IMG/VR virus record: IMGVR_UViG_3300025736_000203
Location: 1 to 24,068 of that record
Length of the DNA stretch: 24,068 nt
Source of the DNA: a virus
Strand: one strand, 5' to 3'
Shown piece by piece: positions 2,097 to 9,966 of the stretch (positions within the stretch are counted from its first letter, which is position 1; each line of letters starts with the position of its first letter). The translations under genes were made by a program, and so were the position numbers. The notes below the pieces were generated by a model. That model had not been told where the DNA came from and did not search any database. It saw nothing but the letters and a program-made list of their open reading frames with translations.

Positions 2097-4232
2097 ATGC
2101 CACAAAACATTAAACCAAAAGAAGAAGCGCAAAAACCTTATAATCCTAGAGGGGAAGATGAGGAGATTTTACAATACTTAATCAAGCGATTGCCAGTATT
2201 GAAGGACGGTAAGAAAAACATACTCAACAATTTAAACTTTGAAGAGATAATGAGAGAGGCGGACAGAGAGTATCAACCTAGATTTTTAAGTGAAAAGAAG
2301 TCAACAGGGCGTAATATACTAGTTCAAGATGAGACTACAGGTTTAAGAGGCTCGCGTATAGTGCCTATTACTGGCAAGGAGGGCAATGAGTGGCGTTCGG
2401 ACTTATCAGAGCCTACCTTGATGGTTAAGATACAAACAGCTTTATCTATATTAGTTGACCAAAACCCCGAGGCAATGTTTAAAGCCACTTGCGAAAAGTA
2501 TAAAAAGACTAAGGATTTAGGGTATGCATTATGGAAACGGAGCTGGGGAATAGGTAAAAGTAAGAAACAACTGAAACTGTTTATATTTAATTTAGCTAAA
2601 TATGGCTTTTCAATAGGGCATACATTTCCGCGTAAAGTCGCAAGAGACGGCGAGATACTGAAAGAATTAGATTTAGATAATCCTGAAAAGAATAAATACA
2701 CTAAGAAGAAAATAATAGAGTTTAACGACGTATATAGGGAAACTTTAGACCCGTTTAGGACTTGGATTGATGATATGGCGAATTTATCCGACCCTTGGAG
2801 TGTTGATGACTGGTATTATGAGAAAGACTATTCAAAAGATACTTTCAACAGGGAATTTGGCAAATATGCTAATGCTGATAAAATTAAATTCATTAATAAG
2901 ACAGTAGATACTGAAAATGAAGCAGAAGATATAGAAGTCAATAAGAGGCAAGATATAACTACTATAGGTTTTTATGAGAGTAAGAATAAGGATTTATACG
3001 CGATATACGCACCTAACGATAAAGTAGTAATATACTCCTCGCCTTTGCCGAATGATGATAAGAAGTTAAGTTGTTGGTGGACATATTGGAATATAAGAGA
3101 TTTAAGAACTCCTTACGGTATAGGCTTATATGAGTTATTGAAGCATAGTAAGGTAATGTATGATAGGTTGAAGAATATGACAGTTGACCAGCTTGTAATG
3201 GCTATATATCCGATGTTATTCTATAGCGGTAGCAATAAGTTAGCAGGCACAGGAGATTTAGTTATAAGTCCTGGATTAGTTAAACAGAAATTACCAGGGA
3301 CAACTATTGAACAGACAAATATCAAATACGACCCGCGAGGATTTGAAGGTGTGGAGAAAATAAGTGAAGATATAGATGAGGCGACAGGTATATCTAAAAC
3401 ATTACAAGGCGAGGTGACGGGAAAGACTTTAGGCGAGGTATTACACGCAAAAGACGCAGCACTTAAAAGATTAAATATACCTTTGGCTAATATAGCAGAA
3501 GCACTGGAAGAGGAGGCATATATATCACTTTCTTGGATGAATCAGATATATTCCATACCAGAGGTTATGACTTTTGCTTGTGCTGATGAATTAACAGCGT
3601 ATGCAGAAGAGGTGGATAATGAGCCATTACAACAAATGGTATTAGCAAATGGCAAGATACAGGCAGATTTTTACCAGCAATTAGATTTAGGGATGGACGA
3701 GGATAGAGAAGGTAATATCATAGAAAGTCCAGATAATAGATTTTTTAAAATAGGTAAAGGTAAAGATATAGAAATAAAGGATTTAAAATGGGAGGGTAAG
3801 ATAACAATTAATCCACAATCTATATTAGTCCCGTCAAAAGAGCTGGAAAGACAGCGTAAATTGGAGTTGTTTAATTTAATAACGCCAGTAGTTCAGACAA
3901 TGTCGCAAATGGTAGCTGATGGTATGGTAGATGTGGGAATGTCCCTATATAAGCCTTTAGAACAGATACTTAAAATACAAGATGAGAAACCTAAGGATTG
4001 GTTGCCAGACAATATAATACAAATAGCAGAAAATCCAGAGATGGCACAACAGATGAAAAAGCAAGCAAAGGCAAACGACCCTACTAACAAATTATTTGTT
4101 AATCCTGAAGAACACGAGGCTAATAAAGAGGCAAAACAAAAAGGCGGAAGCGTAGTGCCACGAGGCGATGTCAGTAACCCATTGCGTAAAGTAGCAGGCG
4201 ATATGGCTAAAGTCGCTAATAAACCTATATGA
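2097..4232 (+). CDS. Portal protein, P22-like
   Basis: A 711-residue protein directly after terL, where the portal sits in most tailed phages. The size is close to P22-type portals. Supporting sequence includes an N-terminal region rich in charged helices, the segment TLMVKIQTALSILVDQNPEA (about residues 107-126), which resembles the clip/wing entry of podovirus portals, and a long helical stretch with GIGLYELLKHSKVMYDRLKN. The C-terminus (about 620-711) is Lys/Gln-rich and helical, as in barrel-bearing portals. Twelve copies would form the ring through which DNA enters and leaves the head. There is no single diagnostic motif, so the call rests on length, position and overall character. The last codons overlap the next gene in an ATGA arrangement. 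Confidence 0.8.
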   Translation: MPQNIKPKEEAQKPYNPRGEDEEILQYLIKRLPVLKDGKKNILNNLNFEEIMREADREYQPRFLSEKKSTGRNILVQDETTGLRGSRIVPITGKEGNEWRSDLSEPTLMVKIQTALSILVDQNPEAMFKATCEKYKKTKDLGYALWKRSWGIGKSKKQLKLFIFNLAKYGFSIGHTFPRKVARDGEILKELDLDNPEKNKYTKKKIIEFNDVYRETLDPFRTWIDDMANLSDPWSVDDWYYEKDYSKDTFNREFGKYANADKIKFINKTVDTENEAEDIEVNKRQDITTIGFYESKNKDLYAIYAPNDKVVIYSSPLPNDDKKLSCWWTYWNIRDLRTPYGIGLYELLKHSKVMYDRLKNMTVDQLVMAIYPMLFYSGSNKLAGTGDLVISPGLVKQKLPGTTIEQTNIKYDPRGFEGVEKISEDIDEATGISKTLQGEVTGKTLGEVLHAKDAALKRLNIPLANIAEALEEEAYISLSWMNQIYSIPEVMTFACADELTAYAEEVDNEPLQQMVLANGKIQADFYQQLDLGMDEDREGNIIESPDNRFFKIGKGKDIEIKDLKWEGKITINPQSILVPSKELERQRKLELFNLITPVVQTMSQMVADGMVDVGMSLYKPLEQILKIQDEKPKDWLPDNIIQIAENPEMAQQMKKQAKANDPTNKLFVNPEEHEANKEAKQKGGSVVPRGDVSNPLRKVAGDMAKVANKPI

Positions 4233-5216: not shown

Positions 5217-5268
5217 AATTAATTCATAATCTCCCTGCGTTCGGGGAGTAATAAAACGAAGTAAATCT
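5217..5268 (+). promoter_or_regulatory. Leader hairpin element, copy A
   Basis: Between the stop at 5213 and the ATG at 5269 lies TTAATTCATAAT, then a 7-bp hairpin (CTCCCTG 5231-5237 with CGGGGAG 5242-5248, tetraloop CGTT), then an unpaired tail ending ACGAAGTAAATCT directly before the ATG. The same order recurs before the gene at 6719, with the flanks conserved and the stem changed in a compensatory way. There is no U tract, so it is not an ordinary terminator. A role in mRNA stability or translation start is inferred. Confidence 0.7.
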
Positions 5269-5856
5269 ATGAATGACGAAGCAAAAAAAAGAATGGCTGA
5301 AAAAATAGCCGCTACAAAAAAAGCAAATTCATCTATTTCATCATTATCTGAGCAGTCAACAACTTTTAGTAATCCATTACCAGAGGATACTAAAATTGAG
5401 TATGTAGAAGACAATGTATCTAAAGATGAGTTTAAAGAATTTAAATCATCAGTGGAAGATACACAGAATAAGATTATAGATATATTGGAGAAAATGCAGA
5501 ATAAGGAAGCAGTAGTTGAAAAGAAAGTAGAGTTAAAAGATGACCCTATGGCAGTTATAAATGATAAATTCCTACCGCCAGCGTATCAAAGTATAGTAAA
5601 TGAGCATTTTGCAGTAGAGGACGGTTTTGAATGCAAATTAGAGTTTCCTGATAAGGATAGCAACGGAGGTTTAACTTTTACAATTAAAGTGCCTGATAAA
5701 TTATCAAATATGATACAAGCTCAAAAAGATTTTTACAAATTAGATTTACGGACAATATCACTACAACCGAATAGCATAGCAAAAGGAATAGATGACTGGT
5801 GCAAAAGAGTTGCAACAAATTTAAAATATGATAGGAAATTCAAATTTAAACAATAA
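5269..5856 (+). CDS. Protein of unknown function with coiled-coil N-terminus
   Basis: A 195-residue protein. Residues 1-35 are Lys/Ala-rich and helical (DEAKKRMAEKIAATKKA). About residues 50-90 form a likely coiled coil (KDEFKEFKSSVEDTQNKIID). The C-terminal half is a mixed domain (PAYQSIVNEHFAVEDGFECK, LEFPDKDSNGGLTFTIKVPD) ending in a basic tail. No family is recognised. It lies three genes upstream of the scaffold candidate and carries the same type of leader hairpin. A head-assembly or virion accessory role is possible but not shown. Confidence 0.65.
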   Translation: MNDEAKKRMAEKIAATKKANSSISSLSEQSTTFSNPLPEDTKIEYVEDNVSKDEFKEFKSSVEDTQNKIIDILEKMQNKEAVVEKKVELKDDPMAVINDKFLPPAYQSIVNEHFAVEDGFECKLEFPDKDSNGGLTFTIKVPDKLSNMIQAQKDFYKLDLRTISLQPNSIAKGIDDWCKRVATNLKYDRKFKFKQ

Positions 5857-5861
5857 TAACA

Positions 5862-5888
5862 TTAATTGTATTAGGGGAATACAATTAA
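5862..5888 (+). promoter_or_regulatory. Perfect 11-bp hairpin ahead of the start at 5898
   Basis: TTAATTGTATT (5862-5872) pairs perfectly with AATACAATTAA (5878-5888) around the 5-nt loop AGGGG. It ends 9 bases before the ATG at 5898 and has no U tract. The only G-rich run near the start, which could act as a Shine-Dalgarno-like sequence, is held in the loop. It differs in sequence from the elements at 5217 and 6666 but has a similar position. Confidence 0.65.
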
Positions 5889-5897
5889 ATAAACATT

Positions 5898-6140
5898 ATG
5901 TTCGAAGAACAAAAAAAACAAGCTGAAAGAATTTTACAAGATGAGAAATTATTGCATATTACGAAACAAATTAAAAATCGTTTAGTAAGAAAAGAAATTA
6001 TGGAGACTGAACTTAAAAGAATAAATATAGAAATTGCTGATTTAGTTAATAACGGAGAATTAAGTAATTTAAATGATTATATAAAAATAGACCCACAAAA
6101 TAAACATATCCTTAACGGATTTGTTATATCTAATGAATAG
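5898..6140 (+). CDS. Small coiled-coil protein
   Basis: An 80-residue protein whose first 55 residues have strong heptad character (EQKKQAERILQDEKLLHITK, then NRLVRKEIMETELKRINIEI). The C-terminal 25 residues are less regular (LNDYIKIDPQNKHILNGF). It appears cytoplasmic, with no cysteines or catalytic motif. Function not recognised. The start is set by the ATG 9 bases after the hairpin. The stop at 6138-6140 overlaps the next possible start at 6133. Confidence 0.6.
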   Translation: MFEEQKKQAERILQDEKLLHITKQIKNRLVRKEIMETELKRINIEIADLVNNGELSNLNDYIKIDPQNKHILNGFVISNE

Positions 6141-6543
6141 AATAATATTAATAACATTAATTATATTTCTCATTTGGAAATACTGGGAGATACAAAACAA
6201 AAAACCTATGACAATTAAATTAAATATTTCAGAGAGATTATTTTCATTAACAATGTTGAATGCTTATAAAGGTAGTCTTGATAAATTATCTGTAATTTTA
6301 GAAGATATTAAAAAGTTTCCTATAACAGAGGAAGAGTGGAAAACTGCAGAGAAAAAGGAAGTTAAAACAAGTGATGGCGGAATGAATTGGACTTGGAACG
6401 ATGAAAAAGGTGGAATAAAAGATATAGAAGTTAATAAGATTACAGTTGATTATTTGACTGAAGAGATTAAGAAAAAAGATGATGCTGGTGAATTTACTCT
6501 AGCTGATAGAAATGTAATAACCTTAAAAGGTAAATTAAAATAA
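6133..6543 (+). CDS. Small protein, start ambiguous: membrane-anchored or soluble
   Basis: From the ATG at 6133 this is 136 residues with an N-terminal hydrophobic segment (IILITLIIFLIWKYW), which would be one membrane anchor. The frame has a second ATG at 6208, preceded by AAAAAACCT, the same context seen before 13532 and close to those at 15679 and 5269. Starting there gives a soluble 111-residue protein beginning MTIKLNISERLFSLTMLNAY. The soluble part has a beta/alpha character and a Trp-rich turn (GGMNWTWNDEKGG). Translational coupling (an 8-base overlap with the previous gene) favours 6133, and start context favours 6208. Function not recognised. Confidence 0.6.
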   Translation: MNRIILITLIIFLIWKYWEIQNKKPMTIKLNISERLFSLTMLNAYKGSLDKLSVILEDIKKFPITEEEWKTAEKKEVKTSDGGMNWTWNDEKGGIKDIEVNKITVDYLTEEIKKKDDAGEFTLADRNVITLKGKLK

Positions 6544-6556
6544 ACAAACAAACAAA

Positions 6557-6615
6557 TAACTGCGAGAGATATTGAGTTCTTTTGAACTTTATATCTAGTA
6601 TTTCCCTCGCAGTTA
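6557..6615 (+). ncRNA. Compound stem-loop, structured intergenic RNA
   Basis: A 10-bp outer stem, TAACTGCGAG (6557-6566) with CTCGCAGTTA (6606-6615), encloses a second arm: AGATAT (6567-6572) with ATATCT (6591-6596), then AGTTC (6575-6579) with GAACT (6584-6588) around a TTTT loop. A 9-nt asymmetric bulge (6597-6605) separates the two. No U tract follows, so it is not itself a terminator; the terminator at 6634 is separate. It could be a processing site, a stability element for the 3' end of the upstream mRNA, or a small RNA. No known family is recognised. Confidence 0.6.
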
Positions 6616-6633
6616 ATATTAGGTGTAAAGCTC

Positions 6634-6665
6634 AAAGGCTACTCAATATCAGAGTAGTCTTTTTT
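6634..6665 (+). terminator. Strong intrinsic terminator before the scaffold gene
   Basis: GGCTACTC (6637-6644) pairs with GAGTAGTC (6652-6659), with one G-U pair, around the loop AATATCA, followed by six T at 6660-6665. Flanking AAA at 6634-6636 extends the stem to 11 pairs. This would end the transcript that starts with the terminase genes and separate it from the capsid genes. A promoter for the capsid genes would have to lie between 6666 and 6718, but none with recognisable -35 and -10 boxes was found. Confidence 0.85.
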
Positions 6666-6718
6666 ATTAATTCATAATTCATCTTGCTTTCGAGATGTAA
6701 AATAAACGAAGTAAATTT
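6666..6718 (+). promoter_or_regulatory. Leader hairpin element, copy B
   Basis: The second copy of the element at 5217. TTAATTCATAAT is followed by a 7-bp hairpin (CATCTTG 6680-6686 with CGAGATG 6691-6697, loop CTTT) and a tail ending ACGAAGTAAATTT next to the ATG at 6719. Compared with copy A, stem pairs 2, 3 and 5 change on both sides and keep pairing; the U-G and G-C pairs closing the loop are kept. The hairpin begins right after CATAAT, so a start site set by that box would fall inside the stem. A function in the RNA is therefore more likely than a promoter. Confidence 0.7.
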
Positions 6719-7495
6719 ATGGATAGAGAAGTAAAAATAAACAATGAGGAAGAAGAAGTTGTTGAAGAGAATTTAGATGAGGTAGTTATACCTCCAGTGG
6801 ATGAAGAAACTGATACTATAGTTGACGAAAAAAAAGAAGAAGAACCTCAAGAAGAAATTTCTGAACCTTCTCCAGAATTGACAATTAAAGATGTCGAAGG
6901 TGAGACACCTAAAGAACGAGCAATGCGTTTTGAATTAACAAAAGCACGGGCTGAATTAAGGGAAGAAAAAAAGAAAACTATAGATAAAAATATAGTTTAT
7001 GAAAAGAAAAATAATCAACCTAATGAAAGATTAGAAAAACTAAAAGAAGAATATGGTGATGACGAACTTTCCAAGATGGAACAGATGTTTGAGGTATTTG
7101 CAGATAAAAAAGGATATGTAAAAAAAGAAAATACATATAAAGAAATGGTTGATAACACTTTAAATGATTTTATTGATAATAATCCAGAATATAAACCAGA
7201 GAATGACAAAGATGATATTCGCTGGGGAAGATTTAATGAGATACTAGTTAATGATTATAATTTAGCTGGTAAATCACATAAAGCATTATCAATAATATTT
7301 TCTAAAGTAAATAGAGATGTAATTGATGAATTTGGAGAAATTAAAGCCGATATTAAAAAACAAAATGCTAAAGTTCAAAAAATTGAAAGTGTTTCGCATT
7401 CAGGCGGAACTAAAACTAAATCTGTTGAGCCTAAAGACATTGACCCAGATGTTAGGAAAATGTTTAAAGGTTTTGCGGATGAAGATTTTAGTTAG
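6719..7495 (+). CDS. Probable capsid scaffold protein
   Basis: A 258-residue, highly charged protein. The first 60 residues are very acidic (runs of Glu with Val and Pro), residues about 65-150 are long charged helices (PKERAMRFELTKARAELREE), and a helical C-terminal part follows with a short conserved-looking tail (DPDVRKMFKGFADEDF). This composition, and the position before the decoration and capsid genes, is typical of phage scaffolding proteins, which line the inside of the procapsid and leave during maturation. Scaffolds diverge quickly, so no sequence motif proves it. It follows the terminator at 6634 and the leader element. Confidence 0.75.
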   Translation: MDREVKINNEEEEVVEENLDEVVIPPVDEETDTIVDEKKEEEPQEEISEPSPELTIKDVEGETPKERAMRFELTKARAELREEKKKTIDKNIVYEKKNNQPNERLEKLKEEYGDDELSKMEQMFEVFADKKGYVKKENTYKEMVDNTLNDFIDNNPEYKPENDKDDIRWGRFNEILVNDYNLAGKSHKALSIIFSKVNRDVIDEFGEIKADIKKQNAKVQKIESVSHSGGTKTKSVEPKDIDPDVRKMFKGFADEDFS

Positions 7496-8039: not shown

Positions 8040-8338
8040 ATGTCAGTATTAAATATTGGACAAATTGCAGATACTACCAATCTTGCAATACAAAAAATTT
8101 GGAAAAAAGCTTCAATGGTAGATTTGAAACTTAAACAATTTTATAATTATAGAACAACTGAAGATTTATATGAAAAAGATAGTTCTGTATCTGGTTTAAA
8201 AGAAGCAGAATTTACTGATGAAAATGCTGAAATTACAGAAGATAATCTTATTCAAGGATTTGACCAGAGCTATGAACAGGAAGCAGTTGACATTTTAGTC
8301 CCTTTCTCTTATAAAGCGTTAAATTTCGGCGCTCTTGT
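8040..8338 (+). CDS. Major capsid protein, exon 1
   Basis: The first 99 codons plus two bases of the main shell protein. The text runs from MSVLNIGQIADTTNLAIQKI to VDILVPFSYKALNFGAL and meets an in-frame TAA at 8340-8342, inside the intron. The opening is typical of HK97-fold capsid proteins: an N-terminal helix, then a charged extended segment, here DSSVSGLKEAEFTDENAEIT. Joining base 8338 to 9252 restores one 337-residue reading frame (1014 bases with the stop), with ...NFGALVKFGIKKRKLDS across the junction. Unspliced RNA would give only a 100-residue truncated product. Identity is inferred from position after the scaffold, the split gene and total length. Confidence 0.85.
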
Positions 8339-8538
8339 TTAAGTAATTTTACAAGAAAAATCCTTTAAATTGCGGGAACACCTCTAAAATAGAGACAATC
8401 CGCAGCGAAACCCACTAAGGGGACGTTCAGAGACTATAATAAGGATACCCTACTTTTATAGAGGGTAAAGGGATAGTCCGAACTCTATGGTGACATAGAG
8501 AAACTGGCAGAAATGTCCAGTTCGCTCATTACAAGTGT

Positions 8539-8567
8539 TTGACTAATTTGGAAGTTTGGTATATACT
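8539..8567 (+). promoter_or_regulatory. Sigma70-type promoter inside the intron
   Basis: TTGACT (8539-8544) and TATACT (8562-8567) are separated by exactly 17 bases, one mismatch each from the sigma70 consensus boxes. Transcription would begin near 8574, about 20 bases before the endonuclease ATG at 8593, and downstream of the ribozyme core. The same stretch can fold as GACTAA (8541-8546) with TTAGTC (8566-8571). The endonuclease could thus be expressed without capsid-gene transcription. No Shine-Dalgarno site precedes 8593. Confidence 0.6.
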
Positions 8568-8592
8568 TAGTCTATAAGTAATAAATAAATAT

Positions 8593-9231
8593 ATGCCTAA
8601 AATTCTAAATGTTAATAAAAAATATAGAACTTATGAATGGTTATTTAATGAATATATTGTTAATAAAAAACCTTCAAGGGAAATTGCTTTGATAGTTGGT
8701 TGCGATAGAAAAACTATTGACCAATGGCTTAATAAAGTAAATATTCCTAAAAGAGGATTTGGTGGTAGTAGAGGAATAAAATCAAAGGAATGGTTAATTG
8801 AACAATATATAAAGAAAGAAAAATCTTTGTCAGAGATAGGAAAATATATTGGTGAGGATTTAAAAACAGTTCATAGGTGGATGATAAAATATAATATACA
8901 TAGGAGAAGTCTGTCAAAATCTCAAAGTGGTTCTAAATCTCATTTTTGGAGAGGTGGAGGACACGAAAGTAAAAGTAGTAAATATGTATTCGTATATGAT
9001 AAAAGTCATCCTTTCGCTAGACATAATGGTTATATATATGAACACAGAATAGTAGTTGAGAAAAAAATTGGAAAATATTTAACTAAAATAGAAGTGATAC
9101 ATCATATAAACTTTAAAAGGAATGATAATCGTTCTGAAAATCTATATTTATTTGCAACACATAAAGAACATATGTGTTACCATTCTCAATATAGGAATGG
9201 TAAAGCAAAATTATTAAAATCAAATATTTAG
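8593..9231 (+). CDS. HNH homing endonuclease encoded in the intron
   Basis: A 212-residue homing endonuclease that would cut intron-less capsid alleles and so copy the intron into them. Residues 16-54 and 67-105 are two related helix-turn-helix units of the form W-L-x3-Y-I ... E-I ... K-T ... W ... N-I-x2-R, used for DNA binding. The C-terminal part holds an HNH_3-type nuclease: a YIYEHRIVVEKKIG segment (about 147-160), then VIHHINFKRNDNRSENL (168-184) with H170/H171 and the downstream Asn residues, then HKEH. It lies between the ribozyme core and the 3' splice site, entirely outside the catalytic structure. It looks intact, which suggests a still mobile intron. Confidence 0.92.
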   Translation: MPKILNVNKKYRTYEWLFNEYIVNKKPSREIALIVGCDRKTIDQWLNKVNIPKRGFGGSRGIKSKEWLIEQYIKKEKSLSEIGKYIGEDLKTVHRWMIKYNIHRRSLSKSQSGSKSHFWRGGGHESKSSKYVFVYDKSHPFARHNGYIYEHRIVVEKKIGKYLTKIEVIHHINFKRNDNRSENLYLFATHKEHMCYHSQYRNGKAKLLKSNI

Positions 9232-9251
9232 TGAGTAGTAACAAATATTGG

Positions 9252-9966
9252 GAAATTTGGGATTAAGAAAAGAAAACTGGACAGTATCGCAGCAGAAATT
9301 GCAAAAGCATTGAATAGAAAGAAAGAAAAGTTAGCTGCTGAAAGATTAACTAATGGTTTTGGCACAACTTATACACATTATGGTATAGGGCGAAATAAAA
9401 CTATTACAATTACAGGTGGAGATGCTGTAGAACCTTGGTCAACAGCACACACAAGAGAAGACGGTGGAACTAATATGAACAATGTTGTTTATGACGGAAC
9501 TACTTATTCTTTACCATTTGATTATGCTGCTTATAAAGCCGCTAATCGCACAGCTTCTTTGTTAGTGGACCCACGAGGCAACCCAGACCCTATAACTTTA
9601 GACACTTTAATCTGTAAAACTGGTTCTAGTGTTTACCATAAAGCTATGGAAATTTTGGGAGCAATTAAGAGTGGTAAAATTGCAGAAAGTAATGATAATG
9701 ATGGTTCAGCACTTCCTGCTTTTAAAATTATTACTAATGAATTTCTTACACAAGACGCGTATTGGGGAATGTTCGATAGCTCAAAAGCATTAAGTGATGA
9801 ATATGGTTTTCAACATATTGAATCAGAAGCTAACAATCTTGACCCTGTAAATGTAGTTTATAAGACAAGAGAAATGCAGTTTGGAGGACACACATTATTC
9901 CGACAAGGACATAATGATGTAGCAAGAGCTTGGGTTTTCTCAGCAGGCGACAGTACAACTTCTTAA
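9252..9966 (+). CDS. Major capsid protein, exon 2
   Basis: The second part of the capsid gene, 237 codons after the junction codon. The frame is open from 9235 and has no proper ATG start, as expected of an exon; a TTG at 9310 is not a real start. It begins KFGIKKRKLDSIAAEIAKAL, the long helix region that in HK97-fold proteins precedes the peripheral domain, then ERLTNGFGTTYTHYG, a core domain with SLLVDPRGNPDPITLDTLIC, and ends in strands TREMQFGGHTLFRQGHNDVA and RAWVFSAGDSTTS. Joined with exon 1 the product is 337 residues, a normal capsid length. The exact family within the HK97 fold is not recognised. Confidence 0.88.

Follow-up and report, generated by a model that had tools for sequence, protein, structure and literature searches.

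A predicted pseudoknot in the leaders of head-region genes from uncultivated phages, with a likely role in translational control

The window, by which we mean the whole stretch of 24,068 bases that was analysed, is an AT-rich IMG/VR virus record with the gene order terminase, portal, capsid. Two of its genes, referred to here as A and B, are each preceded by a similar leader that runs into the start codon. The features of both leaders are listed below; P1 is the hairpin stem, P2 the pairing of the hairpin loop with the tail, L3 the A-rich loop between them, and P0 a possible outer helix.

5219-5271, + strand: leader A, TTAATTCATAAT-CTCCC-TGCGTTCG-GGGAG-TAATAAAACGAAGTAAATCT-ATG
5222-5228, + strand: leader A, 5' strand of P0 (AUUCAUA), which can pair with the start-codon region 5268-5274 (UAUGAAU); suggestive, from the fold and the enrichment of P0
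5231-5235, + strand: leader A, 5' strand of P1 (CUCCC)
5236-5243, + strand: leader A, loop UGCGUUCG, of which UUCG (5240-5243) is the 5' strand of P2
5244-5248, + strand: leader A, 3' strand of P1 (GGGAG)
5249-5256, + strand: leader A, A-rich loop L3
5257-5261, + strand: leader A, 3' strand of P2 (CGAA) plus G, followed by UAAAU
5269-5856, + strand: gene A, head-region protein of 195 aa with a helical N part and an alpha/beta C domain
6634-6662, + strand: intrinsic-terminator-like hairpin with a U run directly before leader B, similar in about a dozen relatives
6667-6721, + strand: leader B, TTAATTCATAAT-T-CATCT-TGCTTTCG-AGATG-TAAAATAAACGAAGTAAATTT-ATG
6670-6677, + strand: leader B, 5' strand of P0 (AUUCAUAA), which can pair with the start-codon region 6717-6724 (UUAUGGAU); suggestive
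6680-6684, + strand: leader B, 5' strand of P1 (CAUCU)
6685-6692, + strand: leader B, loop UGCUUUCG, of which UUCG (6689-6692) is the 5' strand of P2
6693-6697, + strand: leader B, 3' strand of P1 (AGAUG)
6698-6706, + strand: leader B, A-rich loop L3
6707-6711, + strand: leader B, 3' strand of P2 (CGAA) plus G, followed by UAAAU
6719-7495, + strand: gene B, 258 aa, Glu-rich and acidic at the N terminus; the major capsid gene lies two genes downstream

Gene A had no family match and no significant fold match. Its structure was predicted in two runs (mean pLDDT 79 and 77), with a confident C-terminal alpha/beta domain; the best PDB matches, which included protein Y and dsRBD folds, were weak (E 0.1 and above), and for this reason we make no RNA-binding claim for it. 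Gene B, which matched no family or PDB profile, is a putative scaffolding protein by its position, length and acidic N terminus. Family, profile and fold searches assigned an RNA-binding function to neither A nor B. All genes of the window have A/U-rich start regions without Shine-Dalgarno sequences, while relatives of the window have sigma70-like promoters. A group I intron (RF00028, 8310-8500, 94.8 bits) interrupts the major capsid gene (8040-9966) and contains an ORF for an HNH endonuclease (8593-9231); exon 1 ends at about 8327 and exon 2 starts at about 9253, and the capsid gene is uninterrupted in L007, L008 and L009.

Both leaders lie where a preliminary description of this DNA had placed them and read exactly as it had written them. 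It had also reported that three of the five core stem pairs differ on both sides between the copies, and this is indeed the case (U-A/A-U, C-G/U-A, C-G/U-A). The two copies by themselves make a weak case, since whole-leader folding was only modestly above that of shuffled sequences (z -2.4 for A and -1.6 for B), and it is the relatives that decide. Likewise, 12-mers common to both window leaders are frequent once mismatches are allowed.

Relatives were gathered through portal and capsid alignments, which yielded about 60 with portal identity down to 39%. The near-identical contigs L003 and L004 have both leaders, and the leader RNA family extends to more than 30 uncultivated phage contigs, in which it lies upstream of homologous genes. 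In most relatives the A and B homologs are preceded by a hairpin with a quite different stem sequence, followed by an A-rich tail with repeated GUAAAA and then the start codon. Stems were misaligned by MAFFT, and all counts are therefore based on a curated parse and a covariance-model alignment. No portal or capsid relatives were found in 84,980 prokaryote genomes; in INPHARED, portal, capsid and B had no match and terminase had distant matches only.

Comparison across these relatives established P1. It is a stem of 5-6 bp, and in 57 distinct copies 98.2% of cells were paired, with every pair changing on both sides. Double-change cells numbered 85, compared with 24.5 in shuffled data and at most 13 when the register was slid. 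Compensatory change throughout the relatives thus bears out the earlier proposal that two head-region genes are preceded by an RNA structure under selection. The 7-bp hairpin that had been drawn for it survives in part: the stem is real, and its full form gives way to the shorter P1 plus a pseudoknot. The additional closing U-G and G-C pairs found no support, as relatives have these bases in a loop of 6-10 nt that is partly paired with the tail. The tail ACGAAGTAAAT is more than conserved sequence, because its CGAA(G) makes up the 3' side of a second helix.

This second helix, P2, joins the P1 loop to the segment just before 'UAAAA..AUG'. For its test the tail segment was fixed beforehand as the four bases up to and including the G of GUAAA and was not chosen by fit. 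Pairing was found in 37 of 51 leaders (31 perfect and 6 with one bulge), compared with a mean of 8.4 after tails were swapped among leaders and a maximum of 19 in 20,000 permutations. A perfect loop complement occurred in 31/51 leaders at this register, in 1/51 one base downstream and in 14/51 one base upstream. Outside the GAAG/AAAG classes, 12/27 leaders paired, compared with 1% after swapping, and under a stricter fixed loop register 116/153 inner pairs formed, compared with 87.1 ± 4.0. Relatedness is not corrected for in the swap tests and matters less for the slid-register control and the rare-class test. The loop/tail complements include CACCC/GGGUG, CGCC/GGCG, CCUCG/CGAGG, CACCG/CGGUG, CUGC/GCAG, CGCUU/AAGCG and CUUC/GAAG. 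In L048 the A copy uses the first of these and the B copy the second, which shows that structure is kept and not sequence. Both window copies are of a bulged P2 type, C(G)UUCG in A and C(U)UUCG in B with CGAAG: C5238 can pair with G5261 with G5239 bulged, and C6687 with G6711 with U6688 bulged. A 4-bp P2 was absent at the expected register in 14/51 leaders, and some lineages may accordingly do without P2 or have it at another position.

The geometry matches a classical H-type pseudoknot, with about 2 nt in the first loop, a P2 of 4-5 bp and, in all copies, an L3 of 7-13 nt; the element spans about 45 nt. From these comparisons we regard it as near certain that the leader is not a simple hairpin but an H-type pseudoknot, which would fold immediately 5' of the start codon with the A-rich L3 lying along P1. 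In most copies the alignments also show UAAAA after P1 and again after P2.

Placement, strand and gene specificity were likewise established across the relatives. A full descriptor combining P1, P2 and the distance to ATG was matched by 33 of 404 ORFs in 32 contigs, compared with 0.35 expected, and all 33 were homologs of A, B or C, the gene between A and B. Model searches found one to four copies per record, with no convincing copy elsewhere in records of up to 44 kb; 57 of 58 model hits ended at ATG, so that the further copies ahead of start codons that the preliminary description had named as support do exist. Two blind pattern scans of all IMG/VR contigs, each made with a different P2 class, yielded 39 and 21 stretches, and those with a complete leader and ORF all belonged to this clade and had the leader ahead of A, B or C. 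Judged from the descriptor test, the model searches and the scans, the element is clade-specific and gene-specific. The leader nearly always precedes B, and no clear one precedes A in L009, L010, L052, L054 and L075. Gene C has one in L034, L042, L065 and L066, and in L046 a copy lies ahead of the homolog of ORF 4229. In L037, where an HNH endonuclease gene interrupts the order C-B, a copy (3470-3510) precedes that gene, and in L055 tandem pseudoknots (8176-8293) lie ahead of B, the upstream one without a start codon.

These last two arrangements, together with the flanking 12-mer common to the window copies, could be taken to indicate an element that acts as DNA (promoter, operator or recombination junction), the pairing being a by-product of dyad symmetry. 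We consider this very improbable, given the position on the coding strand at a short distance from AUG and the tight space that the terminator and leader B would leave for a promoter between them; loop-to-tail complementarity in many different sequences is also unlike a binding-site motif. The earlier suggestion of a junction for module exchange keeps a marginal basis in the L037 copy and the L055 tandem; apart from these, the element stays with one set of genes. A general promoter role for TTAATTCATAAT was rejected, since few lineages have it and the start site would fall inside P1.

Pseudoknot control of translation is likely from the position of the element. In most copies the end of P2 is 1-10 nt from AUG and falls inside the ribosome footprint, from which we infer that the leader controls translation initiation of A and B and, in some lineages, of a third gene. 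Shine-Dalgarno sequences were also absent from the other genes of these phages, and since they do not use them, control would act on whether the 30S subunit can reach the A/U-rich start region. For the same reason sequestration of a Shine-Dalgarno sequence was rejected, and the 3' strand of P2 (GAAG, AAAG, GGUG, GGCG, GCAG, CGAA and others) is not one. Intrinsic termination was also rejected for the leader hairpin, as UAAAA and a start codon, and not a U run, come after it.

Most probably a factor acting in trans, perhaps one of the head proteins of the phage, would read the fold and the UAAAA repeats and repress translation; such repression would keep the assembly proteins in proportion, much as gp32 acts on its own mRNA in T4. 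Overall, the explanation that we find best, and consider probable, is a cis-acting pseudoknot that controls translation initiation of A and B, probably through repression by a bound factor. A more specific form, in which a head-assembly protein (B, which is scaffold-like, or A, for instance) would bind the pseudoknot both on the mRNA that encodes it and on those of its partners, and set capsid stoichiometry by feedback, is put forward tentatively, as a possibility more doubtful than the control itself.

By analogy with known systems, repression by a bound factor is our first choice and ribosome recruitment its main rival. According to the latter, the pseudoknot would be a translation enhancer or ribosome standby site recognised by the 30S subunit (through S1 or platform proteins), giving strong translation of A and B without a Shine-Dalgarno sequence. 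The lack of such sequences in these phages and the position of P2 next to the start region would fit this, and the tisB and timP toxin mRNAs need pseudoknots for translation, with S1 or the 30S subunit thought to be the reader (PMC11228461). However, the major capsid gene, which would be expected to have the highest translation demand, has no such leader, and among 404 ORFs the full descriptor occurred in none outside A, B and C. An enhancer thus appears unlikely to us, and the pairing of P0 with the start codon in a subset of leaders further argues for restraint.

P0 was found in 17/50 leaders, compared with 8.3 after swapping (P 0.0002), and at 7 bp or more its excess was marginal (P 0.045). 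Both window copies are included, and in both the upstream 12-mer is also able to pair with the start codon. The presence of this outer helix in about a third of the leaders is suggestive of an OFF state, which in that subset would be formed by pairing of the start codon.

The local context of the leaders bears on another reading, namely that the element acts at the mRNA 5' end or in processing, where it would cap the transcript against decay or mark a cleavage site, with secondary effects on translation. In L007, L042, L050 and L060 the distance from the end of a sigma70-like -10 box to the P1 of A is 16-20 nt, which places the leader just downstream of a promoter and thus near the mRNA 5' end in those lineages. 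Ahead of B, the leader directly follows the terminator-like hairpin, which often ends 7-25 nt before P1 and leaves scant promoter room. But a plain stem would suffice for such a role, which leaves the conservation of P2 and the short distance to AUG unexplained, and instead of marking all transcription units the element occurs only at A, B and a few neighbours; we therefore hold this reading to be improbable. In the window, the region between gene C and leader B (6556-6662), which holds the terminator-like hairpin, is long and strongly folding (z -6.5).

If a head-assembly protein is indeed the bound factor, capsid assembly stoichiometry would be set through translational feedback, by a small RNA regulon, in phages that manage without Shine-Dalgarno sequences. 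The leader offers a large comparative set, with tens of lineages and two to four copies in each, for a compact pseudoknot that Rfam lacks and that goes with head-assembly genes. Its size allows direct probing and mutation, and the leader provides an entry both to translational control without Shine-Dalgarno sequences and to the setting of capsid protein ratios.

The preliminary description had recognised no known riboswitch or leader here, and in agreement with this Rfam 15 had no family match over the leader coordinates. A search of mainly open-access literature found no description of this leader. The nearest topology is that of the preQ1-I riboswitch (RF00522), which also has a short P1, a loop-tail P2 and an A-rich L3 contacting P1 at the ribosome-binding site (PMC11625349). 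A metabolite riboswitch of this small H-type sort is nevertheless highly unlikely. Membership in RF00522 was rejected, with no match in the window and 0/15 records above the Rfam gathering cut-off, and the type-specific UC or AC before the 3' strand of P1 (PMC11625349) is absent, those bases varying freely. The leader differs further in its short first loop and in having no conserved ligand pocket: P2 is free to covary, so that the would-be pocket bases of the loop vary together with the tail. Head genes would also be an unlikely metabolite regulon.

In tisB and timP, as proposed here, a pseudoknot in the 5' leader decides translation initiation (PMC11228461). These are toxin mRNAs with antitoxin sRNAs and a longer-range architecture, and the genes are different. 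Among head assembly genes, that of the P22 scaffolding protein is autoregulated post-transcriptionally, and gene B has a comparable genome position; we know of no pseudoknot in the P22 case.

The closest counterpart is the operator of gene 32 in T4, T2 and RB69, a 5' leader pseudoknot bound by gp32, with UAAA-type repeats that extend to the start region (PMC535899). The leader described here likewise has a pseudoknot (P1 and P2), UUAAA/UAAA repeats between it and the start codon, a position close to the 5' end of the mRNA in some lineages, and a relaxed sequence with a retained structure. Unlike T4, which has one site, before the gene for its ssDNA-binding protein, these phages have 2-4 per genome, before head genes; the T4 pseudoknot lies well upstream of a Shine-Dalgarno sequence, whereas here it is mostly within about 10 nt of AUG and there is none; and the phages are not detectably related to T4 in portal or capsid. 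Neither A nor B resembles a gene for a leader-binding single-strand binding protein, both being syntenic head-region genes without a family match. As the controlled gene is not such a gene and binding is putative, the leader is not a member of the gene 32 operators, yet by analogy it would work most like them.
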